From assembly GCF_003403075.1 (NCBI RefSeq), contig NZ_CP031557.1:1488001-1552000 (forward strand): a stretch of DNA of 64,000 bases. Direction: 5' to 3'. Numbering within the stretch: position 1 is the stretch's first letter; each line of letters starts with the position of its first letter. Of this stretch, positions 30,878-47,100 are shown one piece after another. The stretch comes from Flavobacterium psychrotrophum. GTDB taxonomy: Bacteria > Bacteroidota > Bacteroidia > Flavobacteriales > Flavobacteriaceae. Under the pieces are notes generated by a model that was not told the DNA's origin, did no database searches, and was given only the letters and a program-made list of their open reading frames with translations. Position numbers and translations under genes: made by a program.

Positions 30878-32293
30878 ATGGGAAAAAGAAAAACGACAGA
30901 CAAGATTGTTTTTACAAATGTAGATGTGCTTGATGCCGGCGCTAAAGGCGTATCGGTAGCTAAGGCACCAGATGGCAAAGTTATATTTATACCTAATGTA
31001 GTGCCGGGCGATGTTGTAGATATACAAACGTTTAAAAAACGTAAAGCCTATTATGAGGGTAAGGCCATACATTTTCATGAATACAGTGCAGACAGGGTAA
31101 TACCCCAGTGTCAGCATTTTGGGTCGTGTGGTGGCTGTAAATGGCAAAACATGCAGTATGAAAAGCAGCTTTTTTACAAAAACCGTGAGGTATTTAACCA
31201 CCTTAAGCGCATAGGTAAGGTAGAACTACCCGAATTTGAGCCTATTAAAGGCAGCGAAAAGCAGTTTTATTATCGTAATAAAATGGAGTTCTCATTCTCT
31301 AATGCACGCTGGATAACCGAAGAGGAATCTAAAAGTGGCGAGGAGATTGATAACCGTAACGCGCTTGGTTTCCACATTCCGCGTATGTGGGATAAGATAC
31401 TAGACATAAACCATTGCCACCTTCAGGAAGACCCGAGCAACATGATACGCAACTCGGTTCGTGAGTTTGCTATTAAGCACGACCTGGCGTTTTTTAACCC
31501 ACGCGAGCATAGCGGCCTTTTGCGCACGCTTATGATACGTACGGCAAGTACCGGAGAGATCATGGTATTGATACAGTTCTTTGATAATAATAAAGAAGAA
31601 CGAGAGCTGATACTTAACCATCTTGCAGAGCAGTTTCCTAGTATTACATCATTACAGTATGTGGTTAACCAAAAAGCTAACGACACGCTGTATGACCAGG
31701 ATATAAAACTCTTTAAAGGTCGTGACTATATATTAGAGCAAATGGAGGGCCTTAGCTTTAGCATAAACGCTAAGTCTTTTTACCAGACTAATAGCGATCA
31801 GGCTTATGAGCTGTACAGCATAACCCGCGATTTTGCCGGCCTTACCGGAGAAGAACTGGTATATGACCTTTATACAGGTACGGGTACCATAGCCCAGTTT
31901 GTATCGCGCAAAGCAAAAAAAGTGGTAGGGGTAGAGGCAGTGCCGGAGGCTATTGCTGATGCTAAAGAAAACGCAAGGCGCAATAATATTATTAATTGTG
32001 AGTTTTTTGTAGGTGACATGAAAGATGTGTTCAATGCAGAATTTATTGAAACACATGGCTATCCTGATGTTATTATTACCGATCCTCCGCGCGATGGTAT
32101 GCATAAAGATGTGGTGGCAGAGATACTGCGTATAGCACCACAAAAAGTGGTGTATGTAAGCTGTAACTCGGCTACACAGGCACGCGACCTGGCGCTTATG
32201 GATGAGGTTTATAAAGTAACACGTGTACGCCCTGTAGATATGTTTCCGCAAACGCACCACGTAGAAAATGTTGTACTTTTAGAAAAAAGATAA
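30878..32293 (+). CDS. rlmD: 23S rRNA (uracil-C5)-methyltransferase, RlmD/RumA family
   Basis: The product has 471 residues. An N-terminal TRAM domain is followed by the iron-sulfur cysteine set CQHFGSCGGCKWQNMQY, the SAM-binding motif YDLYTGTGTIAQF, DPPRDGMH, and the catalytic VVYVSCNSATQARDL (nucleophile Cys). It methylates a uracil of 23S rRNA (U1939 in E. coli) or a related site. The two following envelope genes are close behind, a synteny I recall in Flavobacteriaceae. Confidence 0.92.
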   Translation: MGKRKTTDKIVFTNVDVLDAGAKGVSVAKAPDGKVIFIPNVVPGDVVDIQTFKKRKAYYEGKAIHFHEYSADRVIPQCQHFGSCGGCKWQNMQYEKQLFYKNREVFNHLKRIGKVELPEFEPIKGSEKQFYYRNKMEFSFSNARWITEEESKSGEEIDNRNALGFHIPRMWDKILDINHCHLQEDPSNMIRNSVREFAIKHDLAFFNPREHSGLLRTLMIRTASTGEIMVLIQFFDNNKEERELILNHLAEQFPSITSLQYVVNQKANDTLYDQDIKLFKGRDYILEQMEGLSFSINAKSFYQTNSDQAYELYSITRDFAGLTGEELVYDLYTGTGTIAQFVSRKAKKVVGVEAVPEAIADAKENARRNNIINCEFFVGDMKDVFNAEFIETHGYPDVIITDPPRDGMHKDVVAEILRIAPQKVVYVSCNSATQARDLALMDEVYKVTRVRPVDMFPQTHHVENVVLLEKR

Positions 32294-32309
32294 TAGAACC
32301 ACCTGCCTG

Positions 32310-32837
32310 ATGAAAAAACTTATTGGTTGCATACTTGTTCTTTGTGTCACAGCCATCTACCTTATCAGTTGTGAAAAGGATGATATATGTGCAGAAACTA
32401 CGCCTACTACACCAAACATGATTGTGTCTTTTTATTATAATGATAACAGGACATCTTATAACCATGTAACTAACCTGCAGTATTATGAAGTAGACAATGA
32501 GCAAAATATCATTTCTGTAGGAACTGTAGATAGTACCAGGGTGCCACTTCGCGTTGATGCAAACCACACAAAATGGGCTTTTGTTTTTAACCAGGTTGTA
32601 GCTAATGGAATTGATAAAAGAACTGACTATGTAGATTTTAAATATACAGTATGGCAGGAGTTTGTATCGCGTGCCTGTGGCTATAAAACCCAGTTTTTAC
32701 TCGATCAGGACAATCCGCGTGGCAGTAACCCTGTTGTTACCGATGGCGATGGTAAAGGACGCTGGATACAGGGTATTGAAATTGTAAGAGACAGTATAAC
32801 AGACGAAAACGAGGCGCATGTTAAAGTATATTTTTAG
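32310..32837 (+). CDS. DUF6452-type lipoprotein
   Basis: The product has 175 residues with a lipobox YLISC in MKKLIGCILVLCVTAIYLIS-C. The paired cysteines (DDICAETTPTTP and RACGYKTQFLL) and the position directly behind rlmD and before the DUF6048-like gene fit the DUF6452 family. It should sit in the outer membrane or periplasm; function unknown. Its end overlaps the next gene by 20 bp. Confidence 0.75.
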   Translation: MKKLIGCILVLCVTAIYLISCEKDDICAETTPTTPNMIVSFYYNDNRTSYNHVTNLQYYEVDNEQNIISVGTVDSTRVPLRVDANHTKWAFVFNQVVANGIDKRTDYVDFKYTVWQEFVSRACGYKTQFLLDQDNPRGSNPVVTDGDGKGRWIQGIEIVRDSITDENEAHVKVYF

Positions 32838-33588
32838 GCTTATTATACTTCTTCCTGTTATTGCCTTAGGTCAGCAGGATTTGAAAGTAGAAAAAATGGA
32901 TACTGTGCAGGCACCGGTTTCTGTGCTACCTACCCAGCAGCGTTATGGCCTTAGGGTAGGTGTAGACTTGCACCGCCTTACACGATCTTTTTATGACGAT
33001 GGCTTTAGGGCAATAGAAGTTGTGGGCGATTTCAGGCTGAATAAAAAACTCTATGCTGCTGCAGAGCTTGGCAATGTTGATTATACTGTAGACGACCGAC
33101 AGCTAAATTTTACTACAAAGGGCAGCTATCTTAAAATAGGGCTTGATGTTAACGCATATGAGAACTGGCTGGATATGGAAAACATGATTTACTTTGGTTT
33201 CCGTTATGGTTTTTCTACTTTTAATCATACTCTCAATTCCTATACGATATACCAAAACAGCGATGTGGGTAATGCCGAAGGACAGGGGAATTATTTTGAA
33301 GATGTAACGGTACAGTCTGGCGAAAAATTCAGTGGGCTTTCTGCGCATTGGGTAGAATTGGTGGGTGGTGTTAAGGCAGAACTTTTTGCAAACATCTATC
33401 TTGGTTTTAGTGTTCGCATCAATAGCCTTATTAGTAATAAAAAGCCTAAAGAATTTGATAACCTTTACATCCCGGGGTTTAACCGTACGTATGATGGAAG
33501 TTTTGGTGTAGGATTTAATTATACGCTTTCTTATCTTATTCCGTTATATAAGAAAACAGAGGTAGAGAAACAGGCTAAGAAAAAATAA
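32818..33588 (+). CDS. DUF6048-type outer-membrane protein
   Basis: The product has 256 residues. A signal peptide (YIFRLIILLPVIALGQ) is followed by a barrel-like series of strands (RYGLRVGVDLHRLTRSFYDDGFRAIEVVGDF) and a basic end KKTEVEKQAKKK. It overlaps the DUF6452 gene by 20 bp, so the two are translationally coupled and probably form one envelope complex. No catalytic motif is visible. Confidence 0.75.
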   Translation: MLKYIFRLIILLPVIALGQQDLKVEKMDTVQAPVSVLPTQQRYGLRVGVDLHRLTRSFYDDGFRAIEVVGDFRLNKKLYAAAELGNVDYTVDDRQLNFTTKGSYLKIGLDVNAYENWLDMENMIYFGFRYGFSTFNHTLNSYTIYQNSDVGNAEGQGNYFEDVTVQSGEKFSGLSAHWVELVGGVKAELFANIYLGFSVRINSLISNKKPKEFDNLYIPGFNRTYDGSFGVGFNYTLSYLIPLYKKTEVEKQAKKK

Positions 33589-33771: not shown

Positions 33772-34011
33772 ATGAAATTATTTTCATTATTACTATCCAT
33801 TATTGTATTTTTTGTATCGCTTTACTTTTTAGTAGGTGAAATAACCTATGGTATATATACTTTTAATGAAGTTATTTATATACTGCTTCTTGTCATTTTA
33901 ATGGTAATATGTGTTACTGGCGTAATTATAAACTGGAGTGTTTTTTCTAAAAAAAGGCGTGGCTCAGTTTATCTTTTTGTGTCAAACAATTTTTCAAAAA
34001 AGGCAAAATAA
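33772..34011 (+). CDS. 79-residue two-helix membrane protein
   Basis: The product has 79 residues. Two hydrophobic helices (about 4-22 and 32-54) surround a short loop GEITYGIYTFNEV; the tail is basic (SKKRRGSVYLFVSNNFSKKAK). No family is recognised. It lies directly before the Ter operon but is separated from it by about 160 bp with a promoter candidate, so it is probably not part of it. Confidence 0.55.
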   Translation: MKLFSLLLSIIVFFVSLYFLVGEITYGIYTFNEVIYILLLVILMVICVTGVIINWSVFSKKRRGSVYLFVSNNFSKKAK

Positions 34012-34110: not shown

Positions 34111-34141
34111 TTGTATCTGCACATTTAAAATCCTATATTTA
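34111..34141 (+). promoter_or_regulatory. Candidate promoter of the Ter operon (TTG-N20-TATATTTA)
   Basis: TTG at 34111-34113, 20 bp, then TATATTTA at 34134-34141, one mismatch from TAnnTTTG. The first ATG of the operon follows 30 bp later. Confidence 0.5.
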
Positions 34142-34170: not shown

Positions 34171-34881
34171 ATGATGATGCAGGAGTTACCCGAATTATAT
34201 AAATACAAACATATTTCTTTCGATTTGTGGCTTACCCTTATTAAGTCGCACCCGGAATTTAAACCAAAGCGTAATCTTCTTTTCAGAGATTATTTCGCCA
34301 TCAATAAACCTATTGATGCCGTTTCTGCAGTAATACGCAAGTTTGATGTGCTTACAAATTCAATTAACGAAAAAGTATGCCGCAACTTTAACACCTACGA
34401 AATTTATTATCTTATACTCGATGCGCTCGATGTAGACATTAACACGGTTACAGCTACCCATCTTGATGGCTTTTACAAGGCGACAGAAGATTTGCTGATG
34501 CAATATAAGCCTGTATTGCTTTATCCTGAAATTCCTGAACTTTTCAGGCAATTGCACAGCGAAGGTAAAACCATGAATATACTGAGCAATACAGCTTTTA
34601 TAAAAGGAAGTTCGCTTAAAAAGGTATTGACTTCACACGGGCTTGAAGAATATTTTGCCTTTCAGGGATACTCTGATGAAACCGGATATTCTAAGCCGGG
34701 AACTGAGATGTACCAGTATGCCTGGGATAACATCCTTAAAATAGGCGATATTCAAAAACACGAAGTATTGCACGTTGGCGATAATGCCCTGTCTGACCAG
34801 CAGGGAGCCCTGCAATTTGGCTTCGATGCATATTTATTAACCAACCCAATCAATAATGAACCTAAGTTACAGCCTGCATAA
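34171..34881 (+). CDS. HAD-family hydrolase of the Ter operon
   Basis: From the ATG at 34171 the product has 236 residues (neighbouring ATGs at 34174 and 34177 are equally possible). Motif I is SFDLWLTLIKS: the nucleophile Asp is present but the +2 position, Asp in most HAD phosphatases, is Trp. Motif II is MNILSNTAF and motif III/IV are SKPGTEMYQYA and VLHVGDNALSDQQGAL. HADs are recurrent partners in Ter systems, where they are proposed to act with phosphoribosyltransferases in making a nucleoside-like metabolite. Loss of the +2 Asp suggests another hydrolase chemistry or a changed substrate. It overlaps the next gene by 26 bp. Confidence 0.85.
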   Translation: MMMQELPELYKYKHISFDLWLTLIKSHPEFKPKRNLLFRDYFAINKPIDAVSAVIRKFDVLTNSINEKVCRNFNTYEIYYLILDALDVDINTVTATHLDGFYKATEDLLMQYKPVLLYPEIPELFRQLHSEGKTMNILSNTAFIKGSSLKKVLTSHGLEEYFAFQGYSDETGYSKPGTEMYQYAWDNILKIGDIQKHEVLHVGDNALSDQQGALQFGFDAYLLTNPINNEPKLQPA

Positions 34882-35716
34882 AATTACCGATAAAAACAAC
34901 AGCCCGTTTTGCGAGGCAGAGTACAGCAAGTTTAAATTTGGCGATAGTAGCATTGCACAAAAGTTTGCCGATGAACTTTTTGACGGTTTTATAGCAAAGC
35001 ATTCAGATTTAATACTGGCGCACGATGAAGTGGTGATATTGCCAAGCCCGTACCACAGCATACCTACAGCATCTAACTATCTTAGTTCATACTTTAAGCT
35101 AAAGATGAATGCGTTTTTATACACTCATGGTAAAAAGGCATTGTCTGAATCTAAAATATACCGTAACCAGACGTATACTACAGATTATGGTAGCCTAAGC
35201 TTTGCAGACAGGGTAAAACTAATAGCTAACGATACTTACTATATAGACCGTAATTATATTAACGGTAAACTATGCCTGTTTATGGATGACATAAAGATAA
35301 CGGGCAGCCATGAGCTTATCGTTAAAAAAATACTTAATGAGTATGATGTGCAGGGCGAATTTGTATTTGTATATTTCGCTGAGTTAATAAATAAGGACAT
35401 TCATCCTAATATTGAGAATTATTATAATTACTTTTATGTTAAGGATACTGAGAGCCTTGGGGAGGTTATCAATGCGCCGTCGTTTGTGTTTAACACGCGT
35501 ACAGTAAAATACATACTGAAGCTTGAGGAGCCTGAATTTATGGCGTTGCTTGATATTATTAATCCAAATGTACTGCCGCAATTGTTTAACCTGGCGGTTA
35601 GTAATAATTATCATACCATTGAAGATTACAGGGTTAACCTGCATTATATAAACCAAAGTATAACCAATAAAAAATCTAATCATTATGGCTATCAACTTAC
35701 AGAAAGGTCAACGTGA
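34856..35716 (+). CDS. Phosphoribosyltransferase-like protein of the Ter operon
   Basis: The product has 286 residues. The core resembles a type I PRTase: VVILPSPYHSIPTAS near residue 60 and GKLCLFMDDIKITGSHE near 137-153, which matches the hhhhDDhxxTG PRPP-binding loop. The C-terminal third has no recognised motif. Ter systems often carry a PRTase with the HAD upstream; together they are proposed to make a modified base or nucleoside. It overlaps the HAD gene by 26 bp and the first terD by 32 bp, so expression is tightly coupled. Confidence 0.75.
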   Translation: MNLSYSLHKITDKNNSPFCEAEYSKFKFGDSSIAQKFADELFDGFIAKHSDLILAHDEVVILPSPYHSIPTASNYLSSYFKLKMNAFLYTHGKKALSESKIYRNQTYTTDYGSLSFADRVKLIANDTYYIDRNYINGKLCLFMDDIKITGSHELIVKKILNEYDVQGEFVFVYFAELINKDIHPNIENYYNYFYVKDTESLGEVINAPSFVFNTRTVKYILKLEEPEFMALLDIINPNVLPQLFNLAVSNNYHTIEDYRVNLHYINQSITNKKSNHYGYQLTERST

Positions 35717-36239
35717 AACACTTAATGCTCCAAAATTTACCATAGGCTTAGGCTGGGATACAAACACATCTTCTACAGGTGCGGCATTTGATCTTGATGC
35801 CTCGGTATTTGTTATGGGCGATAACAGGAAGCTGCTTGCTGACGAATTTTTTGTATTTTATAACAACCTTACTTCTCCGGATGAGGCGGTACAGCACACG
35901 GGCGATAACCTTACCGGTGAAGGAGATGGAGATGATGAATCTGTAAATGTAGACCTTGCTAAGATAGACCCACGTGCTACAGAGCTTTGTGTGGTAGTAA
36001 CCATACATGATGCTGAAATACGCAAGCAAAACTTTGGACAGGTGCGTAACTCTTATGTGCGTATTGTTGATGCTTCTAACGGAAATGAGCTTGTAAAATA
36101 TGAGCTCGAAGAAGATTTCTCTATTGAAACTGCTGTAGAGTTTGGCCGTATCTATAAAAGAAACGGCGAATGGAAGTTTGAGGCAGTAGGTGTAGGCCAG
36201 CGTGGCGGGCTACAGGAATATTTAAACAAATACAACTAA
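35685..36239 (+). CDS. terD: TerD family protein, copy 1
   Basis: The product has 184 residues with the complete TerD fold: [62 protein letters not shown] (acidic calcium-binding sites) and GRIYKRNGEWKFEAVG. TerD proteins bind calcium and are thought to sense stress or act as a scaffold at the cytoplasmic side of the membrane. It is the canonical, 190-residue type. The sister copy at 38963-39516 is very similar but frameshifted. Confidence 0.95.
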   Translation: MAINLQKGQRETLNAPKFTIGLGWDTNTSSTGAAFDLDASVFVMGDNRKLLADEFFVFYNNLTSPDEAVQHTGDNLTGEGDGDDESVNVDLAKIDPRATELCVVVTIHDAEIRKQNFGQVRNSYVRIVDASNGNELVKYELEEDFSIETAVEFGRIYKRNGEWKFEAVGVGQRGGLQEYLNKYN

Positions 36240-36249
36240 TAAAATTACA

Positions 36250-36858
36250 ATGGCTATAAATTTAGAAAAAGGGCAGCGCATTAACCTTGAAAAAAGCAAC
36301 GGCAGTAAACTACTTAACCTTTGTGTGGGGGTAAACTGGGGTGCTATAGAAAAAAAGGGGTTCTTCAGCACTAAAAAAGAGGCGGTAGACCTTGATGCAA
36401 GCTGCGCCATATATGATGAAGGTAAAAGAAATATTGACACCGTTAGCTTCCGTCAGCTTAAGAGCAACGATCAGGCCATTCGCCATAGTGGCGATGACCT
36501 TACGGGCGACCTTAATGGTAATGATGGCTTAGATAATGAAGTCATTACTGTAGATCTTTCACGCCTTACACCATCTGCAAATTACGTGGCGTTTTTTATA
36601 AACAGCTTCCGCGGGCAGGACTTTAAAGATATTCCGTTTGCATCCATCAGGATTTACGAAGGTACACCAACCCGTGTAAACGAGGTATTTGCCAAGTACG
36701 ACATTGCTAACGAGGCTACTTTTGCAGGCAGTGTATCTATGGTGCTGGGTGTGTTTTATAAAAGAAATGGCGAGTGGAAATTTAATGCTGTAGGCGAACC
36801 TACAACTGATAAAAAATTAGAACAAACCATAGTAACCATTCAACAAAAGTTTCTGTAA
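36250..36858 (+). CDS. TerD-like protein, variant copy 2
   Basis: The product has 202 residues. It starts like TerD ([15 protein letters not shown]) but has LCVGVNWGAIEKKGFFSTKKEAVDLDASC, a form with an inserted loop before the DLDAS strand, and ends IVTIQQKFL instead of the canonical tail. The acidic site HSGDDLTGDLNGNDGLDNE is kept. This is the divergent TerD/TerE-like subfamily that usually pairs with a canonical TerD. It lies 10 bp behind terD copy 1 and is most similar to copy 4 (39575-40234). Confidence 0.9.
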   Translation: MAINLEKGQRINLEKSNGSKLLNLCVGVNWGAIEKKGFFSTKKEAVDLDASCAIYDEGKRNIDTVSFRQLKSNDQAIRHSGDDLTGDLNGNDGLDNEVITVDLSRLTPSANYVAFFINSFRGQDFKDIPFASIRIYEGTPTRVNEVFAKYDIANEATFAGSVSMVLGVFYKRNGEWKFNAVGEPTTDKKLEQTIVTIQQKFL

Positions 36859-36861
36859 GCT

Positions 36862-37959
36862 ATGGAAAACAACGATTTAACAGCGCCGCAGCCACAGGCT
36901 TCGATTGCGCCAATAGATAAAGAAGGTAATGTAAACCTGGCTAATATACAGCCGGGTGATATGGCACAATATGAAGCTATTACAAACCAGCTTTCTGAAA
37001 AAGATACTAACTCAATACTAAACTTTGGTGCTGAGATACAAAATAACATTGCCCGCCAGAGTGATACGTTTTTAAATAACGTACGCACACAGCAGGGGGG
37101 CGAAGTAGGCAACCTTATAACGGAGCTTCTTACCGAGCTTAATTATATTGATGTTGATGAACTCAACAAAAATGGTTTCCAACGCTTTATCTCGGGTATA
37201 CCATTACTTAATAAACTGGTTATCGACGTTAAAAAGATCTTCCAGAAGTATGATAAGATCACGGCTAATGTAGACCGTATTAGTAACAAGGTTAAGGCTG
37301 GGATGATCAATTCGGTAAAAGATAATACCTCGCTGCAAACTATGTTTGACAGTAATGTAAACCTTATCAAAGACCTTGAAAAGTATATTATTGCAGGCCA
37401 GCTTAAGTTTAAACAACTTAGCGAAGAACTTGCGGTAATGGAAGGTAATCCATCTAATTATCAGGATTATGAAATTTCTGATAAGCGTAACTTTACGACC
37501 CGCCTTGATAAAAGGCTGGCTGATATGAAGGTGGTGCGTTTTATACTCCTGCAATCATTAGCGCAAATAAGGGTGGTGCAAAATAACAACACCTCTATTG
37601 CCGAAAAAGCGCAGACGATACTTACCACAACCATGCCGGTATGGAAGAACCAGCTTACACTTGCAGTAGCGCTGCAAAGGCAAAAGCAGCACATTGAGGT
37701 ACAGAAGAAAGTAAGTGAGACGACCAACACCATTCTTCAGAAAAATGCTGAAATGCTAAAAACAAACAGTATTGAGGTGGCCAGGGAGAACGAAAAAACG
37801 GTGGTGTCTTTAGATACGCTTAGATCTACTACAAGGTCGCTTATAGATACACTTAGCGAAGTAAAACAAATACACGAACAGGGTGCCCAAACGCGCAGGG
37901 AGCTAGATGCCGGCCTGCAAAACCTTGAGGCAGAACTGAAAAAAGGTGTAGTGAGCTAG
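36862..37959 (+). CDS. telA: Toxic anion resistance protein TelA
   Basis: The product has 365 residues. The long helical body with INLNLANIQPGDMA-like start, SILNFGAEIQNNIARQSDTFL, LLNKLVIDVKKIFQKYDKITANVDRI, and TTMPVWKNQLTLAVALQRQKQHIE is diagnostic for the TelA/KlaA family. TelA is a cytoplasmic, coiled-coil-rich protein linked to tellurite and colicin resistance; its mechanism is not known. It starts 3 bp after the TerD-like gene and is within the operon. Confidence 0.93.
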   Translation: MENNDLTAPQPQASIAPIDKEGNVNLANIQPGDMAQYEAITNQLSEKDTNSILNFGAEIQNNIARQSDTFLNNVRTQQGGEVGNLITELLTELNYIDVDELNKNGFQRFISGIPLLNKLVIDVKKIFQKYDKITANVDRISNKVKAGMINSVKDNTSLQTMFDSNVNLIKDLEKYIIAGQLKFKQLSEELAVMEGNPSNYQDYEISDKRNFTTRLDKRLADMKVVRFILLQSLAQIRVVQNNNTSIAEKAQTILTTTMPVWKNQLTLAVALQRQKQHIEVQKKVSETTNTILQKNAEMLKTNSIEVARENEKTVVSLDTLRSTTRSLIDTLSEVKQIHEQGAQTRRELDAGLQNLEAELKKGVVS

Positions 37960-37982
37960 AAACAGCAACATAAAGAAGGTAG

Positions 37983-38963
37983 ATGCAGGAAGGGCAGCAG
38001 GAAATTTACGCTCAGGCTATAAAAGATAGTAATAAAAGGTTATTGGTTTTAAAAACATTGTCTAATTTTTTTAACCATAAGGATCTCTTTGCGGTTTATA
38101 TTCGCACTAAGGTTATCCATAATCTTTTTGAATCGAATACTGGTCTTGATCCTAATAAGCTGGAGCTCTTTCATATACAATATACCAGTAGCCTGATCGA
38201 TTTGTTTCAAAAGCTCAAAAAAGCAAAGGAGCAGCAGTACCTGTTAGTTAATGATGAAATCTATATTAATGATGAGCTGGTAGGCAAACTGGAGAAGCAA
38301 ACCCAAAGCCTTGATTTTACAGGCGAGTCGCGAAAGCACAGCCAAAACATGGGTGCTAAATTGCGCGAACTTTACAGCATATTGGAAAGTGGCACGGCAG
38401 GCAAGCCCTTTAGCTGGGGCGATGCACTTATGCTTAGTACGCGTTTTGGGCAGGAGTTTTACCGGGAGTTTACGGATGCCGAAAAGTTTCTGCAACTTAC
38501 AGAGGCAGAAACTAAAAAAACATACAGGAGCGACTATGCAGCCATAGAGCGAAAGCTGATGGGCAGGCTTAATAAGCTAAACTTCAGGATAAAATTTACC
38601 TGTGGGCTGCGTTATCAAAATGATTACCTGGAGGTTTTTGAATTTGTAGATTCTAATGATAAGTTCATCTTTATAGAGGCCATCAAAACCTTTTTACTGT
38701 TGGATAATGAAATGGCAGCAGGGCTTGATTTTTCTAAAAATATGTCTAACAAGGCGGATATAGTAAATAGCCTGCGCCAAAAAAATGATATGCTGCACGA
38801 TAAACTGGGCAGTATTAAAACGTCGCTCCCTACTGATGTGGAGGATGTGTTAGAAAGTTATCTCGAAAAAATATCAGGGGTAGATTTCCTTGAGGAGCTG
38901 CAAAATGTAGATGAGCAGACCAATATTTTAAGAGCAATGTTAAATATAAATATTACAAAATAA
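37983..38963 (+). CDS. Unknown Ter-operon protein, 326 residues
   Basis: No family recognised. The product is predicted mostly helical, with charged heptad-like stretches near [18 protein letters not shown] and [18 protein letters not shown], no signal peptide and no membrane segment. A middle segment ([23 protein letters not shown]) looks like a folded helical domain. Its stop overlaps the start of terD copy 3 (TAATG) and it lies 23 bp behind telA, so it belongs to the operon. It may be an adaptor for TelA or the TerD proteins; that is inference. Confidence 0.7.
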
Positions 38964-39516
38964 TGGCAATAAATCTTGAAAAAGGGCAGAGGCAAAGCAT
39001 TGCTGCACCTAAATTTACCGTAGGTCTGGGCTGGGATACTAATAACAGTAATACCGGCGAGGCGTTTGACCTCGATGCTTCGGTATTTGTGCTGGGCGCT
39101 AATGGTAAACTGGTGAGTGATAATCACTTTGTTTTTTATAATAACCTTACCACACCAGATGGTGCTGTAACCCATGCAGGCGATAACCTTACGGGTGAAG
39201 GCGATGGCGATGATGAAAAAGTATTTATCGACCTTTCTAAAATTTCATCGATGTAAGCGAGATCACGTTTGTAGCAACGATACACAAAGCCGCAGACCGC
39301 AGGCAAAATTTTGGACAGGTGCGCAACTCATTCATTCGTATTGTAGATGGTTCAAATAATACAGAGCTTGTAAAATATGAGTTGGATGAAGATTTCTCTA
39401 TAGAAACAGCTGTAGAGTTTGGTCGTATCTATAAACGAAATGATGAGTGGAAATTTGAAGCTGTTGGTGCCGGTATGAAAGGTGGCTTGCAAGATTTTCT
39501 TAACAAATATAATTAA
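38963..39516 (+). pseudogene. TerD family protein, copy 3, split by a one-base frameshift
   Basis: The first frame gives [20 protein letters not shown] through [11 protein letters not shown] and a stop at 39254-39256. The rest of TerD ([19 protein letters not shown], then the NFGQVRNSFIRIVD region to the end LNKYN) continues in the neighbouring frame from about 39250 to 39516. Aligned with copy 1 exactly one base is missing near 39249-39250; restoring it gives a complete TerD of about 184 residues. The calcium-site acidic loop is in the first part. Either the gene is broken in this strain or the base was lost in sequencing. It is not in a homopolymer. Confidence 0.85.
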
Positions 39517-39574
39517 GATAAATTCTTTAATTAGTTAATATTTGTATATTTAAACCAACCAATAAACATAAATC

Positions 39575-40234
39575 ATGGCAATTAACCTATCCAAGGGTCA
39601 GAAGATAGACCTTAAAAAATCTTCAGGCGAAACCCTTACTAATTTTTGTGTAGGTGTTAACTGGGGTGCTATAGAGTCAAAAGGCTTTTTAGGCCTTGGT
39701 AAAAAAGTGCAGAGCATTGACCTCGACCTAAGTTGCATTCTTATAGACGACCAGAATAACCTGTGCGATCACCTGTACTCACCACTTTATCGTGTAGAGA
39801 TACTACAGCAGTTTGGTTTGCCAAAAGGTAAGCTACAAACTACCGATGGTGCTATGCGCCACACTGGCGACGACCTTCAGGGAGATACCGGTGGTGATGA
39901 TGGTCTTGATAACGAAATTATTACAGTAGATCTTTCTAAATTGCGTCCTAATGTAACGCAGATATTTTTCTTCCTGAACAATGCAGGTAAAGAAGATTTC
40001 TCGCAAATACCATACTCAAAAATCCGTATGTATGAGGGTACTCCTACTTATGTAAAAGAGGTTTTTGCATCTTATAACGTTTCTGCCGAAGGGCAGTATG
40101 TGGGTAAGCAAAGTATCATCATGGGCAAGCTGTACAAACGAAATGGCGAATGGAAATTCAGTGCCATTGGCGACCCTACAGAAGATACATTCCTTGGACA
40201 AACCATTCACCGTATTGTAAAGTCTTACCTTTAA
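39575..40234 (+). CDS. TerD-like protein, variant copy 4
   Basis: The product has 219 residues, of the same divergent type as copy 2 (LTNFCVGVNWGAIESKGFLGLGKK and SIDLDLSCILID) with a longer insert (HLYSPLYRVEILQQFGLPKG) before the acidic site HTGDDLQGDTGGDDGLDNE. It ends IHRIVKSYL. The 58 bp before it form the largest gap inside this part of the operon, so an internal promoter is possible. Confidence 0.9.
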   Translation: MAINLSKGQKIDLKKSSGETLTNFCVGVNWGAIESKGFLGLGKKVQSIDLDLSCILIDDQNNLCDHLYSPLYRVEILQQFGLPKGKLQTTDGAMRHTGDDLQGDTGGDDGLDNEIITVDLSKLRPNVTQIFFFLNNAGKEDFSQIPYSKIRMYEGTPTYVKEVFASYNVSAEGQYVGKQSIIMGKLYKRNGEWKFSAIGDPTEDTFLGQTIHRIVKSYL

Positions 40235-40245
40235 TTTTATAGCTT

Positions 40246-40659
40246 ATGCAAATCAAAAATATTGATGGGCTATCCGTATCCCAAATCAGGAGGATGGTAA
40301 ATGAAGGCGGTAAATTCGTAATCTTTCCATATACGGTATCTATAGTAGTAATGACGTTTAAAAGATCATCTTCTATTTATTTTATACCGCCCGGTGAAAA
40401 TACCATCAAGCATTCTTATAAGCATGTGCTTACTAATGGTGTACTGGGTTGGTGGGGTATCCCGTGGGGGCCTATTTACACTATAGGCAGTATGTATCAC
40501 CATTTAAGCGGCGGTAAAGATGTAACATCTGATGTTATGACCCATCTTATACAGCATGACCCTGAGGCCAATACGTCTACTTATAATATTAATGGCGTAG
40601 TATCTTCAAATACGGCAGTACCTGCACAACAGCAGGATACTTATAACATACCCAGGTAA
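40246..40659 (+). CDS. Unknown Ter-operon protein with GWWGIPWGP segment
   Basis: The product has 137 residues. The first 60 residues look like a small beta-domain (KFVIFPYTVSIVVMTFKRSSSIYFIPPGE). A short hydrophobic stretch LGWWGIPWGPIYTIGSMYHH (about 83-102) could anchor it in or at a membrane. The last 35 residues are Asn/Thr/Gln-rich and probably disordered. I recall similar WGIPWGP segments in unannotated Bacteroidota proteins but no function. It is 11 bp behind the TerD-like gene and 9 bp before the vWA gene. Confidence 0.7.
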   Translation: MQIKNIDGLSVSQIRRMVNEGGKFVIFPYTVSIVVMTFKRSSSIYFIPPGENTIKHSYKHVLTNGVLGWWGIPWGPIYTIGSMYHHLSGGKDVTSDVMTHLIQHDPEANTSTYNINGVVSSNTAVPAQQQDTYNIPR

Positions 40660-40668
40660 TCTTAGCAT

Positions 40669-41304
40669 ATGAGAAGGCTACCTGTTTATTTTTTGCTGGA
40701 CACGTCCGGCTCTATGTATGGCGAACCCATACAGGCGCTTAACAATGCCCTTAGCGGTATGGTTAATACGTTGCGCAGCGATCCGCAGGCGCTTGACTCG
40801 CTGTGGCTTAGTATCATTACGTTTGACCGTGAGGTTAAAGAACTGGTACCACTTACTGAGTTGGTGCAGTTTCGTTTGCCTGAAATTACCTGTCCGCAGA
40901 GTGGGCCTACCAATACCGGTGCCGCACTCGATTTTGTTATGGATAGGGTAAGTAAAGATGTAATTAAAGGATCTGATACGCAAAAAGGCGACTGGAAACC
41001 ATTGCTGTTTCTTTTTACCGATGGCAAACCCAGCGACATACAGCTGTATCGCGAAAAAACAGCCGAAGTGCGTAAATTCGATTTTGGTGCTGTTGTAGGC
41101 TGTGCTGCCGGCCACCTTGCTAACGATGCCATGCTTAAGGAACTTACCGATAATGTGGTACACCTTGATTCGGCAGACAGCCAGACGCTTAAAGCCTTTT
41201 TTAAGTGGGTAAGCGAAACCATAGAGCAGGGTAACAAAAGCCAGGGAACAGGAGAAGCGCCTAAGTTGCCTCCGCCGCCAGATGAGATAACGGTAGTAAT
41301 TTAA
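40669..41304 (+). CDS. vWA domain protein (TerY-like), copy 1
   Basis: The product has 211 residues, a lone von Willebrand A domain: MIDAS DTSGSMYGEP at residues 10-19, threonine in SGPTNTGAALD, and FLFTDGKPSD. It binds a divalent metal and through it protein partners, in the cytoplasm. It ends with a Pro-rich tail PPPPDE. In TerY-P systems the vWA protein acts with PP2C and a kinase that follow downstream. Confidence 0.9.
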   Translation: MRRLPVYFLLDTSGSMYGEPIQALNNALSGMVNTLRSDPQALDSLWLSIITFDREVKELVPLTELVQFRLPEITCPQSGPTNTGAALDFVMDRVSKDVIKGSDTQKGDWKPLLFLFTDGKPSDIQLYREKTAEVRKFDFGAVVGCAAGHLANDAMLKELTDNVVHLDSADSQTLKAFFKWVSETIEQGNKSQGTGEAPKLPPPPDEITVVI

Positions 41305-41317
41305 TACAGGACCAACC

Positions 41318-42367
41318 ATGAGAAGATTACCCATTTATTTTTTGATAGACATTTCTGAATCGATGGTAGGCGAACCCATACAACAGGTAGAGGAGGGGCT
41401 TGCCGCGATTATACAGGCGCTTAAGTCAGATCCTTACGCGCTCGAAACCGTTTGGATATCAATTATCGTATTTGCGGGTCAGCCAAAAACACTGGTGCCT
41501 TTGCAGGAAATCGTTACATTTTATCCGCCAAGATTTCCTATTGGGGGTGGTACTTCGCTTAGTAAAGGCTTGGGCCACCTGATGTATGAACTGCGTAAAA
41601 ATATCGTAAAGACTACTTATGAGCAAAAAGGCGACTGGAAACCCATTGTGTTTTTGTTTACAGATGGTGTTCCTACAGATGATACCGCATCTGCTATAAC
41701 AGAGTGGAAACAAAACTGGCAAAAATCGGCCAATATGGTAGCCATATCGTTTGGCGATGAGGCCTATACGTCATTATTGGGCCAACTAACCTATAATGTA
41801 CTGCATTTTAAAAATACTAATGCACAGTCATATAAAGAGTTCTTTCGCTGGGTTTCAGATTCTATTAAAACCAGCAGCATAAGTGTAGACAGTAACGGTT
41901 CGGGCTTTGAACTTGCCAAAACCGACGATGACACCCTTTCAAAAATAGACCTTACAAAACCCGCAGATCGTAAACCAGCTTATGATGATAATTTTGTAGT
42001 ACTGGCCGCTAAATGCCAAAACACAAAACGCCCTTACCTGATGAAGTATGCCCGTAACCTGGCATCAAACAACTTTGGCGGGGTAGATTTGTATACCAAA
42101 TCTTATAGGCTTACCGGTGCTTTTCCGGTTGATAATTCTTATTTTGAACTGGCCGATGCTAAAATTGACACTAAGGTAAGCAGCGAAGAGCTTGTAGGTG
42201 CACCTACCTGTCCATGCTGTGGCAACCCTTATGGCCTTGCAGTATGCAGTTGTGGTAACATACACTGCATAGGCGAAGAAAAAGAAAGTACCTGCCCTTG
42301 GTGTGGTAATAGGGGAACTTACGGCATAGGCAGCGGTGGTTTTGATATTAACCGTGCACAAGGCTAA
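41318..42367 (+). CDS. vWA domain protein with C-terminal zinc ribbon (TerY with TerY-C)
   Basis: The product has 349 residues. vWA domain with MIDAS DISESMVGEP, GGGTSLSKGLG and FLFTDGVPTDD. The C-terminal half contains NFVVLAAKCQNTKRPYLMKY and the cysteine pairs CPCCGNP, CSCGNIHC and CPWCGNRG, a double zinc ribbon called TerY-C. It is likely the metal-binding platform on which the PP2C and kinase act. The stop overlaps the PP2C start (TAATG). Confidence 0.92.
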   Translation: MRRLPIYFLIDISESMVGEPIQQVEEGLAAIIQALKSDPYALETVWISIIVFAGQPKTLVPLQEIVTFYPPRFPIGGGTSLSKGLGHLMYELRKNIVKTTYEQKGDWKPIVFLFTDGVPTDDTASAITEWKQNWQKSANMVAISFGDEAYTSLLGQLTYNVLHFKNTNAQSYKEFFRWVSDSIKTSSISVDSNGSGFELAKTDDDTLSKIDLTKPADRKPAYDDNFVVLAAKCQNTKRPYLMKYARNLASNNFGGVDLYTKSYRLTGAFPVDNSYFELADAKIDTKVSSEELVGAPTCPCCGNPYGLAVCSCGNIHCIGEEKESTCPWCGNRGTYGIGSGGFDINRAQG

Positions 42368-43766
42368 TGGATGAAACAGAAAAATATCTCTACGCACTAC
42401 TGCAACAGCAGGGTATAAGCAGCCATGAACGCTTAAGGGAGTTGTTTAATGAATTTGTTAGCAGAGAAGAAAATATAAATTACGTAAAAAGCATAAAACT
42501 GCTACAGGAAAAAATGACAAAAAACTGGCAGATTTTTGCGCGCGGCGAAGATATAAAAACACTTCAGGTGGCACTTCCTAACGGCAACCAGGGCAAAGCG
42601 TATAAAGCAGTTTTTGATTTTGAAGCTTTTGGTTTAGCTGACATTACCCGTTATGAACTTACTGGTTTTGAAGGTACAGGCCTTGCATATGACCCTGAAA
42701 ACAAAATAATTGAGGGTTTACCGGCAAACAGCGGCGACATTGTTTTAAATTTTAGCTATAACTTTGAGGGTGAGCCTGAAGATGCTGAATTCAACCAAAA
42801 AAAAGTTACCATCATCATCAATCCGGATCCTAAGTCGCTCTGGAGAGATATTCCCAGTGATCCTGATGGGCAGTTTGCCGTACCGGACAGGTTAAGCGAA
42901 ACCGTTTCTTTTTTAGGAAAAACACTTGTGGTAGCTTCTACCCGTGGGCGTTCGCACGCTATTAAAGGTTCTTATAGAGATGATAGTTATGCCTATGCCG
43001 AATTACTTTCCGGATGGGGTGTAATTGCAATTTCAGATGGTGCGGGTTCAGCAAAATTTTCCCGTAAGGGGCAGAAATTGCCTGCAAATCTGTTATAGAT
43101 TATCTAGAGAGAAATTTTACTAAAGAAAATGCAGCATTGCTTGATGAAGCTATCAGTATATATTCAGTTGATGCTTCGGTAAAAGACAGGCTTGAGGATA
43201 TAGCATTTCCATATCTTTCGGAGGCAGCCAAAAATGCACATACTACTATTGAGGCCTTTGCTCATACAAATGATGCTGCTATCGGCGATTTTCATGCCAC
43301 GCTTTCTTTTGCGTTAGTCAAAAAATACGAGACGGGTTATGCCTTTTTAAGTTTTGGTGTAGGCGATTGCCCTATTGTTTTAGTAGCTAAAGATTTTAGT
43401 GAAGTGATACCGCTTAATATACTTGATTCAGGAGATTTTGGAGGAGGAACACGCTTTGTAACGATGCCGGAAATTTTTAAAAAAGAAGACTACGACAGCC
43501 GTTTTAGATTTGAATTCGTAAACGGTTTCCCATATGTTGTATTGATGACTGATGGCATTTATGACCCTAAGTTTGAGGTGGAGGCTAATTTAGCAAAAGC
43601 CGAGAAATGGCAACATTTTTTTAAAAATCTTCAGGGAAATAATGATGAGGATGTAACTATTTCCTTTGATGTACGTACAAGTACTATAGATACATCACTT
43701 TTAAAGTGGATGGATTTCTGGAGCCCGGGTAACCATGACGACCGCACCCTGGCAATCTTGTTTTAA
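42367..43766 (+). pseudogene. PP2C phosphatase with Ig-like extension, split by a one-base frameshift
   Basis: The first frame runs from ATG 42367 to 43098. It has a helical head, an Ig-like domain (about residues 60-140, KAYKAVFDFEAFGLADITRY and IIEGLPANSGDIVLNFSY, as in He_PIG repeats), and the start of PP2C with GVIAISDGAGSAKFSRKG. After that the correct reading (GAEIACKSVIDYLERNF onward to DDRTLAILF at 43766) is in another frame. The frames join at GGGG (43068-43071): one more G would restore a protein of about 466 residues. The second part holds GDFHATLSFALV, GVGDCPIVL, MTDGIYDP and NHDDRT, the metal-binding Asp set of PP2C. It overlaps the vWA stop and is 8 bp before the kinase. Confidence 0.85.
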
Positions 43767-43774
43767 AATTTAGT

Positions 43775-45283
43775 ATGAATATTACAACCGTACGGTCTGT
43801 TAACGACCCTGATAAAACCTACCAGTTTAATGACAACGGCGCCCCAATGCGCGGCGGGGTAAAAGACGTATACTTTAGCCCGGACCGTAGTTATGTGGTA
43901 GCGCTTTTTAGGGAGCGGCTGGACGACAACCAAAAGGAACGCCTTAAGCGTATTACCACCCAGTATCTTACCCAGATAAAAAATAAAGATGCCGCAGAAT
44001 ATTTTTTAGAGGAAGTATTCCGTTGGCCTACAGATGTTGTAGAACATAAGGGGCTTACCGGCATTATTGTGCCCACTTATAAGCAGAAGTTCTTTTTTAA
44101 GCAAGGGCAGGAAACTGCTAACCTGATTAAAGGAAAAGAAAAGAATGGTAAATGGTTTGCAGCTGCAAAGTTCAGGAACGAGCAGTTTCCGCTACGGCTT
44201 GCCAAGGCAGAACTGGGTAACTGGCTGAGCTATTTTCAGATATGCTTAAACATAGTACGGGGCATCAAGAAGATGCACGCCATGGGCCTGGCACACTCTG
44301 ACCTTTCATACAACAATATTCTTATTGACCCCATTGAGAAATCGGCTTGTATGATCGACCTCGATGGGCTTGTGGTACCAGGGCTGTTTCCGGCGGAGGT
44401 AATAGGTACGGCTGAGTTTATAGCGCCAGAGGTTTTGGCTACAAGGCACCTGGATAAGGCTGACCCTAAACGTATTTTACCAAGCCGTTATACTGACCTG
44501 CACGCGCTGCCCGTGCTCATTTATATGTTTTTGCTACACCGCCACCCGTTAAAAGGGAGCAAAGTGCATGACCTTGATGCCGAAAAAGATGACCTACTTT
44601 CTATGGGAGAAAAGGCATTGTTTATAGAACACCCTACAGACCATAGTAACCGCCCTAAAATAAGCCGTTTCTCTAAATGGGAAATGCCCTGGAGCGATAT
44701 TGATAAATTGCCTTACAGTATTACAGGGCCCTACCTTGCTGAAATGTTTGATCGGGCTTTTATTACCGGGCTACACAACCCACAGGAACGTCCACCGGCC
44801 GAGAGCTGGGAACAGGCAATTTTAAAAACAGTCGACTTAATGCAGCAATGCGCTAATACTGCCTGCAGCCAGGGATGGTATGTGTTTGACAATTCGGTGG
44901 CTCCAAAATGCCCTTTTTGCGGAACAAAACACCAGGGAACGCTGCCAATGCTCGATTTTTATTACGAATTTAGCCCCGGTGTATGGAAGCCCGATAACCA
45001 AAGGCTGATGGTGTATAATAATCAGTACCTCTTTAACTGGCATGTAAACCGAAATGTGGTACGTAATGAAAAAACAGATCCACGCGATAAGATACCTGTA
45101 GGCTATTTTACTTTTTTTGAAGGGAAGTGGATGCTGGTAAATCAAAAGCTGGATAGCATGAAAGATATTACCGAGGGTAAAGATGTGCCTGTAAACAGCA
45201 TGACAGAACTTACACAGGGTAAAAAGCTGCTTCTTTCTGGCAAAGAAGGAGGGAGGCTTGTACTTATAACAATTACAAATTAA
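43775..45283 (+). CDS. Protein kinase-like protein with zinc ribbon (TerY-P kinase)
   Basis: The product has 502 residues. Kinase-like fold with catalytic loop HSDLSYNN (174-181, Ser in place of the Arg of HRD) and metal loop DLDG (195-198), then APEV. The N lobe is unusual but GVKDVYFSPDRSYVVALF probably holds the ATP-binding lysine region. Around residues 365-400 a four-Cys zinc ribbon (CANTACSQGW...CPFCG) follows, then about 100 residues of beta structure. It belongs to the TerY-P triad of vWA, PP2C and kinase, the proposed phosphorylation switch. HSD/DLDG forms are the usual ones in this family. Confidence 0.85.
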   Translation: MNITTVRSVNDPDKTYQFNDNGAPMRGGVKDVYFSPDRSYVVALFRERLDDNQKERLKRITTQYLTQIKNKDAAEYFLEEVFRWPTDVVEHKGLTGIIVPTYKQKFFFKQGQETANLIKGKEKNGKWFAAAKFRNEQFPLRLAKAELGNWLSYFQICLNIVRGIKKMHAMGLAHSDLSYNNILIDPIEKSACMIDLDGLVVPGLFPAEVIGTAEFIAPEVLATRHLDKADPKRILPSRYTDLHALPVLIYMFLLHRHPLKGSKVHDLDAEKDDLLSMGEKALFIEHPTDHSNRPKISRFSKWEMPWSDIDKLPYSITGPYLAEMFDRAFITGLHNPQERPPAESWEQAILKTVDLMQQCANTACSQGWYVFDNSVAPKCPFCGTKHQGTLPMLDFYYEFSPGVWKPDNQRLMVYNNQYLFNWHVNRNVVRNEKTDPRDKIPVGYFTFFEGKWMLVNQKLDSMKDITEGKDVPVNSMTELTQGKKLLLSGKEGGRLVLITITN

Positions 45284-45313
45284 AATAACTAAATCAAATA
45301 AAATAACTAATAA

Positions 45314-46312
45314 ATGGACAGCTTAATTAATCATCCGGGCATTATTGCCGTTTTTTCCGTCGTTGTACTAATCATGCTTCTCCTTGACCTGGGAGTATTT
45401 AACAAAAACAGCCATGCAGTAACAAATAAAGAAGCCATAACATGGTCGCTGGTCTGGATTACGCTTTCTATGGGCTTTAGTGGTGTAATATACTATTACA
45501 TGGGGGTAGAAAAGTTCTCCCAGTTTCAGAGTGCTTATTGGATAGAGAAGGCTTTATCTGTAGATAACTTATTTGTATTCATATTAGTATTTAGCTTTTT
45601 TAATGTACAAAAAGAAAATCAGCACAAAGTACTTTTTTGGGGTATCATTGGGGCATTAGTGCTCAGGGCAATATTTATTTTTAGCGGTGTAGCTCTTATT
45701 AACGTTACATATCTGCCTGAATTTGAGCTTTGGGGCTATAATATGAGGGTAAATATCTTACTTACAATATTTGGACTTTTCCTTGTATATGCCGGTATAA
45801 AATCTGCTTTTGCAGAAGACGATGATGATGAAGAGAAAGACTTTAATAAGAGCCCGGGTGCACGTATTGTAACTAAATTTTTTAAAGTAAGTAAAAACTA
45901 TGATAAGGATAACTTCTTTACTATAGAAAATGGCAAAAAACTCGCTACACCATTACTTGTAGTTGTAGGTGTTATCGAATTTACCGACCTTTTATTTGCG
46001 GTAGACTCTATTCCTGCAATTTTTGCCATAGCACCGGATGACCCTTTTATTCTGTACACGTCTAACATTTTTGCCATATTAGGCTTAAGAGCACTTTACT
46101 TCTTATTAGCTAACTTTATACACCTGTTTAGTAAATTAAAATATGGGCTTGCTATCATCCTTTCATTTATTGGTGTTAAGATGGTTATATCGCCTATATA
46201 TCATATCGAATCGATGCATTCGCTTATGGTAGTGGCTGGCGTACTAGTACTTTCTGTATTAGCATCAGTATTATTTCCTGAAAAGGAAGAAGTTAAAGAA
46301 ACAGAAGTTTAG
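45314..46312 (+). CDS. terC: TerC family integral membrane protein
   Basis: The product has 332 residues with about eight or nine membrane helices. Key family stretches are WIEKALSVDNLFVFILVFSFF, LRAIFIFSGVALI and FTDLLFAVDSIPAIFAI, the last with the conserved acidic pair in the membrane. An acidic cytoplasmic insert (AEDDDDEEKDFNKSPG) lies in the middle. TerC proteins are proposed metal (manganese) exporters or the membrane core of Ter complexes. It ends the operon and is followed by a terminator; 30 bp separate it from the kinase, with repeated AATAACTAA stretches. Confidence 0.95.
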   Translation: MDSLINHPGIIAVFSVVVLIMLLLDLGVFNKNSHAVTNKEAITWSLVWITLSMGFSGVIYYYMGVEKFSQFQSAYWIEKALSVDNLFVFILVFSFFNVQKENQHKVLFWGIIGALVLRAIFIFSGVALINVTYLPEFELWGYNMRVNILLTIFGLFLVYAGIKSAFAEDDDDEEKDFNKSPGARIVTKFFKVSKNYDKDNFFTIENGKKLATPLLVVVGVIEFTDLLFAVDSIPAIFAIAPDDPFILYTSNIFAILGLRALYFLLANFIHLFSKLKYGLAIILSFIGVKMVISPIYHIESMHSLMVVAGVLVLSVLASVLFPEKEEVKETEV

Positions 46313-46332: not shown

Positions 46333-46372
46333 ACAAAACAGGCCGCCCAATTTGGGAGGCCTGTTGTATTTT
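46333..46372 (+). terminator. Rho-independent terminator of the Ter operon
   Basis: AACAGGCC / GGCCTGTT with a bulge and inner GCCCAATTTGGGA hairpin, extended by ATACA/TGTAT, and followed by TTTTA. It may serve both convergent genes. Confidence 0.85.
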
Positions 46373-46389: not shown

Positions 46390-47100
46390 TTATTCTTCTT
46401 CGCCCTCTTCGTCATCATCTTCATCTGCTTCAAATTCATCAAGCAGAAAATCAACTACAAGCTCTATGGTATCTCCATTTTCATTTAACCCAAAGTAAGC
46501 CGGGAAATAGCCATCTCCCCATCCTGATGCAAACATAACAATGTTGTTATCACTTTCAGGATTTGGTTTATGGTCGTTCCAGTCGCCAAGCTCACGTGAG
46601 AATGTGTTTTTACCGGAATACTCCCTGAACTCTTCAGATAGCACACTGTCGTAATAATTATATTCAGGATTAGCCTCTTGAAGCACGTCCAGTTTTTCAT
46701 TAAACTCTTCGCTGGTTTCTTCATCCATAAAACATGCCAGGCCAGATTCTACAGCAAAACCATAAAATTCGCCTTCTTCGAGTTCTCCAAGCTCCTCCGT
46801 AGTGATATCTTCGGTAAGGGCAAGTATCCACTTCGTAGCATCTTCCGGCCTGAATTTTATTTTGGCGTAAGCAATACGGTGGTGTAATTTATCTATTTCA
46901 GACACATAAATGTACACAGGGTACTTATCGGGTTCTACAGAGCGTGCAAAAGCAGCCTGTTCAGCCGAAAAAAAAGGGTCTGAAGCTACGATACGTCCTG
47001 TTGGCAGGTTAACATCGCCTATATGTATTTCAACAAGTTCGCGTTCGCCCATTTCTCCGGAAAGGTCAAACGGAAGCTCAAAGTCACTAACGTTTTTCAT
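46390..47100 (-). CDS. DUF4241 domain protein
   Basis: The product has 236 residues. The pattern LPTGRIVASDPF and the C-terminal FASGWGDGYFPAYFGLNENGD match DUF4241, a small beta-rich family of unknown function found near toxin/immunity genes in some genomes. The end is very acidic (DEFEADEDDDEEGEEE). It is a single gene, convergent with terC. Confidence 0.85.
   Translation of the reverse strand: MKNVSDFELPFDLSGEMGERELVEIHIGDVNLPTGRIVASDPFFSAEQAAFARSVEPDKYPVYIYVSEIDKLHHRIAYAKIKFRPEDATKWILALTEDITTEELGELEEGEFYGFAVESGLACFMDEETSEEFNEKLDVLQEANPEYNYYDSVLSEEFREYSGKNTFSRELGDWNDHKPNPESDNNIVMFASGWGDGYFPAYFGLNENGDTIELVVDFLLDEFEADEDDDEEGEEE

Follow-up and report, generated by a model that had tools for sequence, protein, structure and literature searches.

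A Ter stress operon in Flavobacterium psychrotrophum with a HAD–PRTase–TerD–TelA–U326 core and two broken reading frames

Introduction

Ter systems are widespread, and they have been linked to resistance against tellurite, zinc, phages and envelope stress. A row of fourteen genes in Flavobacterium psychrotrophum, which an initial annotation had read as a complete Ter-dependent stress operon, raises the question of which of these genes belong together, whether the operon is still intact in this organism and what it might do. Ter-dependent stress response systems were reportedly defined by Anantharaman, Iyer and Aravind in 2012, and the operon studied here has in common with them TerD, TerC, TelA, a phosphoribosyltransferase-like protein (PRTase), a HAD-fold protein and the triad of a vWA protein, a PP2C phosphatase and a kinase. 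It differs from them in that a protein we call U326 is a fixed member of the core, the HAD has Trp in place of its second Asp, the triad is optional and two of the genes are broken; moreover TerB, a frequent member, had no match among the fourteen genes in Pfam scans with E up to 1. The U326 or HAD feature may already be described in the founding study. The enterobacterial ter operon has the gene order terZABCDEF, and the operon of the window resembles it in its TerD-family proteins and TerC and differs from it in giving no TerB match among the fourteen genes and in having TelA, U326 and the triad.

A literature search for such an operon in Bacteroidota gave no study among the matches listed, and no functional data for this phylum were found. 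A passage of PMC7824862 assigns signal synthesis to the PRTase and HAD, sensing to TerD and TerB, a membrane response to TerC and sub-membrane structures to TelA, and passages of PMC5395568 cite calcium binding by TerD and do no more than mention TerZ/TerD of Flavobacterium branchiophilum.

Results

Fourteen genes in one direction

The window, that is the whole stretch of 64,000 nucleotides that was analysed, carries the fourteen genes on its + strand between positions 34171 and 46312, in the order given in Table 1 and with intergenic gaps of −32 to +58 bases. These measurements bear out the initial annotation in that all genes run in one direction and the stated domains are present. This spacing suggests that the operon would be read as a single transcript. 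The earlier description of a ‘paired TerD’ was right as to the pair and an understatement as to the number, as the operon has two TerD pairs. In a profile search of the single-contig genome (4,843,008 bases), five TerD matches were found, which correspond to four genes, all inside the operon. The word ‘complete’ does not hold, since both TerD3 and PP2C are frame-broken.

Table 1. Features of the Ter operon and its flanks, in window coordinates
Feature	Position	Strand	Evidence and remarks
Weak promoter candidate, TTG-N20-TATATTTA	34111..34141	+	Not above chance
HAD-fold protein, D-x-W-x-T in motif I	34171..34881	+	PF00702 E 1.3e-12
PRTase_3 phosphoribosyltransferase-like protein	34856..35716	+	PF15610 E 2.4e-81
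TerD1	35685..36239	+	PF02342 E 7e-71; solved TerD 2kxt is a relative, E 1.3e-52
TerD2	36250..36858	+	PF02342 E 8.1e-33
TelA	36862..37959	+	PF05816 E 8.8e-93
U326, core protein	37983..38963	+	Mostly helical; conserved C-terminal tail; homologues with PF26677
TerD3, frame-broken	38963..39516	+	Two out-of-frame pieces, 38963–39256 and open frame 39241–39516; PF02342
TerD4	39575..40234	+	PF02342 E 4.1e-29
U137, small protein	40246..40659	+	No domain match
Stand-alone vWA, D-x-S-x-S intact	40669..41304	+	PF00092 E 2.1e-13
TerY, vWA with TerY_C metal-binding domain	41318..42367	+	PF15616 E 1.6e-48; PF00092 E 7.2e-11
PP2C phosphatase, frame-broken	42367..43766	+	Two out-of-frame pieces, 42367–43098 and open frame 43068–43766; PF13672 (PP2C_2) in both
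Protein kinase; C-terminal extension and four conserved, zinc-ribbon-like cysteines	43775..45283	+	PF00069 (Pkinase) E 8.3e-10
TerC, TerC/Alx type	45314..46312	+	PF03741 E 3.6e-50; TIGR03718 above cut-off
Hairpin, likely terminator, common to TerC and the convergent DUF4241 gene	46338..46364	+	

The signals at the two ends of the operon fared differently. Upstream, the promoter candidate, TTG-N20-TATATTTA, has one mismatch to a Bacteroidota promoter consensus. The + strand of the window has 106 sites of this kind, or 1.66 per kb, and the candidate is therefore no better than chance; nor were sigma-70-like sites enriched in the promoter scan, with 27 found against 36.5 expected. Downstream, a stable hairpin does follow TerC (−25.4 kcal/mol for the folded 61-base stretch, z −4.71), in accordance with the strong terminator that had been proposed, although a terminator scan that requires a T run did not list it. 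The hairpin lies between TerC and a DUF4241 gene (46390–47100) that converges on it. On the other flank, rumA and the DUF6452 and DUF6048 genes occupy positions 30878–33588; they are neighbours across the genus, with DUF6048 found in 61/61 genomes and the three together in all 12 relatives fetched with longer flanks. In a search for an empty insertion site among these 12, the genes that follow the operon lay beyond the fetched flank in every case, and no such site emerged. A small hydrophobic open frame of 79 residues (33772–34011) stands alone in the gap that separates DUF6048 from the HAD gene.

U326 belongs to a conserved core

To compare gene order we used 58 loci, of which 44 were picked by U326; a phylum sample supplied another 13 and a genus sample the last one, and not all of the loci are independent. 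The same order recurs across these relatives far beyond chance, and HAD, PRT, a TerD, TelA and U326 are present in 58/58 loci, a conservation that is conditional on U326 because the first loci were picked by it. The linkage of the parts that the reading as a Ter-dependent system implies is thus conserved. An unconditional test is provided by the co-occurrence of the families across 395 Bacteroidota genomes, that of the window included: the 15 genomes that carry U326 are the very ones in which PRTase_3 scores over its cut-off, with PRTase_3 matches below the cut-off in three further ones. TerD is found in 21 of the 395, among them all 15 with U326, and is thus not confined to genomes with this core. 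TerC accompanies the core in 53/58 loci. Two of the loci without it (L014 and L033) run into the end of their sequence, and in three others (L010, L011 and L016) TerC is absent next to an intact core although the sequence goes on for several kb. L010 and L011, both Flavobacterium operons, are also without TerD4 and the triad, and have an open frame of 121 residues between TelA and U326. We conclude that the identification as a Ter operon is firm, with a core of HAD, PRTase, TerD, TelA and U326 that is usually joined by TerC. The component list of the initial annotation was correct in its domains and did not name U326, the gene whose strict pairing with the PRTase marks it as the core component worth testing first.

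U326 itself matched no model in local copies of Pfam, NCBIfam or PADLOC and no solved structure, while in a database listing its homologues carried PF26677 on the 120 matches listed of 376. A structure model built from 18 of the 44 sequences, with a mean pLDDT of 83.5, shows long helices next to a small beta portion, and fold comparison gave no trustworthy match to this predicted model. Across 59 sequences, the C-terminal tail is the most conserved window of 20 residues (0.881), nearly tied with residues 55–74 (0.875), and it is the tail where model confidence is lowest (39–53). This conservation suggests that the tail may be a partner-binding element, and the long helices of the predicted model would be compatible with a scaffold role for U326.

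Trp replaces the usual second Asp of the HAD

Phosphatases of the HAD fold usually have Asp where Trp stands in motif I of the HAD protein studied here. This motif reads D-x-W-x-T in 58/58 loci, counting one whose gene start had been placed too far downstream, and D18, T22, S139, K175, D204 and D209 are conserved at 97% or more. The Trp at this place raises the possibility that the HAD is no typical phosphatase, and it weakens the case for a simple phosphatase step; counting the other way is 2om6, a solved HAD that also has Trp at this position and is named as a probable phosphoserine phosphatase. The initial annotation had proposed a biosynthetic HAD and PRTase, and of this proposal the two domains stand (PF00702 and PF15610), whereas the usual catalytic signature of the HAD lacks its second Asp throughout.

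The triad is an optional cassette

The vWA, PP2C and kinase genes that had been counted as part of the system are all present in the window, but elsewhere they come and go. TerY occurs in 39/58 loci and is accompanied by PP2C and a full kinase in 37, standing alone in L014, at a contig end, and in L016. TerY is absent from the remaining 19 loci, among which L046 retains a kinase relic of 59 residues. When 10 of the 19 genomes were searched as a whole for TerY_C, none gave a match (0/10), while both controls were positive (2/2). On a quick tree the presence of the triad needs 7 changes, counted over 57 of the 59 rows (all except L014 and L150) with L016 taken as present. The triad is an optional cassette and not part of the core. 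Where the kinase is present it keeps H-x-D-x4-N in 37/38 rows, the exception being the L046 relic, and it has four conserved cysteines, at positions 359, 364, 379 and 382, after the kinase domain.

The small protein U137 follows TerY in its occurrence. No model in local copies of Pfam, NCBIfam or PADLOC matched it, and in the loci examined it is found only with TerY, in 27/39 against 0/19 (Fisher p 1.5e-7, uncorrected for relatedness). Its family occurs in 17/395 Bacteroidota genomes, several of them outside the 15 with the operon.

TerD3 and PP2C are broken in this genome

Both TerD3 and PP2C lie in two out-of-frame pieces in the window (Table 1). In relatives they are whole: the TerD after U326 is intact, with 182–184 aa, in 44/44 relatives (loci fetched with U326), and PP2C is a single frame in 37/37 loci that carry it among the 58 examined, its length being 421–502 aa in the 44 loci fetched with U326. 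An intact copy of the operon is present, for example, in a record of F. johnsoniae (L031). Given these single-frame relatives, we rejected programmed frameshifting as an explanation for the splits.

Among the matches listed (120 of 3700), the closest whole PP2C has an identity of 85.4% to the N-terminal piece and 84.1% to the C-terminal piece, so the break is either recent or a sequencing error. The breaks in both genes may be such errors, from sequencing or assembly, in which case the operon would be whole and working in this organism; the nearly equal conservation of the PP2C halves, which leaves no room for long decay, and a short G run adjoining the PP2C break both speak for it. The break in TerD3, however, lies outside any long homopolymer, and it is visible as two matches in the same kind of search in which 44 ABC_tran and 33 TonB-barrel matches from the same genome show no internal stop and no split. 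These unsplit controls favour real breaks, without proof, and we give the error reading a sizeable minority share of our belief. Our preferred reading is that the operon is a recently damaged form here, which is one part of the joint explanation that we hold with evenly divided confidence (see Discussion).

An accessory operon with a patchy distribution

In a genus sample, the operon's U326 was found in 12/199 genomes. A tree of joined PRT, TelA and U326 places the window next to two Pedobacter operons (support 88, not starred), and these three sit among Flavobacterium rows with support 100. A constraint that unites the window with the 37 named Flavobacterium rows in a single clade was rejected (AU p 5.9e-7) in a test on 50 of the 59 rows, four further rows of the same genus and those without a genus name being set aside; the clade was chosen after inspection of the tree, and the trees were built quickly and have long branches. 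One row of the same genus (L159) is identical to F. frigidimaris (L018) over the proteins used for the tree. Taken together, the tree placement and the patchy presence suggest transfer between families, and the operon, which is accessory in the genus, has probably spread by transfer, again as part of the joint explanation. Separately, L107, a genome of the same genus, carries a divergent operon that clusters in the tree with operons from a different family.

Discussion

Which function could such an operon serve? The analysis shows which genes are present and in what order, how far they are conserved and co-occur, which motifs they have and where frames are broken; each functional step of the following model is inferred. 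Faced with a threat from phage, metal or envelope stress, the cell would use the PRTase and its unusual HAD to make or modify a nucleotide-like small molecule. The TerD proteins would bind calcium and possibly also the nucleotide-like molecule, while TelA and the long-helix U326 would form a scaffold at the inner membrane, to which the conserved tail of U326 would bind a partner. TerC would transport a divalent metal across the membrane, and the vWA/PP2C/kinase cassette would add an optional layer of switching by phosphorylation. The break in PP2C has probably cost this switch its off-arm, and one of the four TerD proteins would be lost through the break in TerD3. The best explanation of the locus in our view, to which we assign about an even chance, is thus an accessory, probably transferred Ter stress operon of a Bacteroidota type, recently damaged here, that works as just proposed. 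Its link to metal, membrane or phage stress, which the initial annotation had also suggested, is drawn by analogy with other bacteria.

One alternative is that the operon serves chiefly metal homeostasis, in which TerC would do the work and the other genes would regulate it. The TerC/Alx-type match lies above the cut-off and 53 of the 58 loci carry TerC; in Klebsiella, according to passages of PMC12054061, terC has phenotypes for tellurite, Zn, Mn and phage and ter is induced by Zn, and the abstract of PMC12096827 describes a role in Mn for TerC in Bacillus. Three loci nonetheless keep the core without TerC, and it is HAD, PRT, TelA and U326 that are found in every locus of this set picked by U326. 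We consider a chiefly metal-related function rather unlikely. Another alternative is a chiefly anti-phage operon, in which the triad would act as in TerY-P defence and the Ter core would serve as its effector, and it agrees with the patchy presence and likely transfer of the operon, with the protection of Pseudomonas against phages by TerY-P (passages of PMC10889362 and PMC7699616) and with the effect of terC on phage growth in the Klebsiella work, but it is unlikely given that the triad is absent from 19/58 loci, that PADLOC scans, with a library that may or may not contain TerY-P models, gave no TerY-P row, and that passages of PMC11090510 give the stand-alone anti-phage type an OB fold after the kinase and the Ter-linked or CoCoNuT type a zinc ribbon, the window kinase having four conserved cysteines.

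Going beyond the preferred reading of a damaged accessory stress operon, one could imagine that the Ter signal arm of Bacteroidota always passes through U326. The signal made by the PRTase and a HAD other than an ordinary phosphatase would act on a coiled TelA–U326 assembly under the membrane, the U326 tail would dock this assembly to TerD or TerC, and the phospho-triad would be a bolt-on regulator that is being lost here, phosphatase first. We regard this as a speculative and improbable scheme. Since natural operons occur with and without the triad, and this one has only the phosphatase and one TerD broken, core and switch could be tested apart.

The stand-alone TerY-P system against phages (Gao et al. 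2020, as described in passages of PMC11090510 and PMC7699616) likewise has consecutive genes for vWA, PP2C and kinase, whereas the window triad is embedded in a Ter operon, has a broken PP2C, gave no PADLOC row and has a kinase followed by conserved, zinc-ribbon-like cysteines where the stand-alone type has an OB fold. In the triads of Type II and III-A CoCoNuTs, as described in passages of PMC11090510, the kinase followed by a zinc ribbon, the TerY-like vWA and the PP2C are common features, and the difference is that the fourteen genes of the window include no restriction-type genes. Around the triad, many loci have a stretch of ∼700 bases 5′ of TerY that the window does not have, and two stand-alone vWA genes are present in 28 of the 58 loci (L018 and L020 among the examples).
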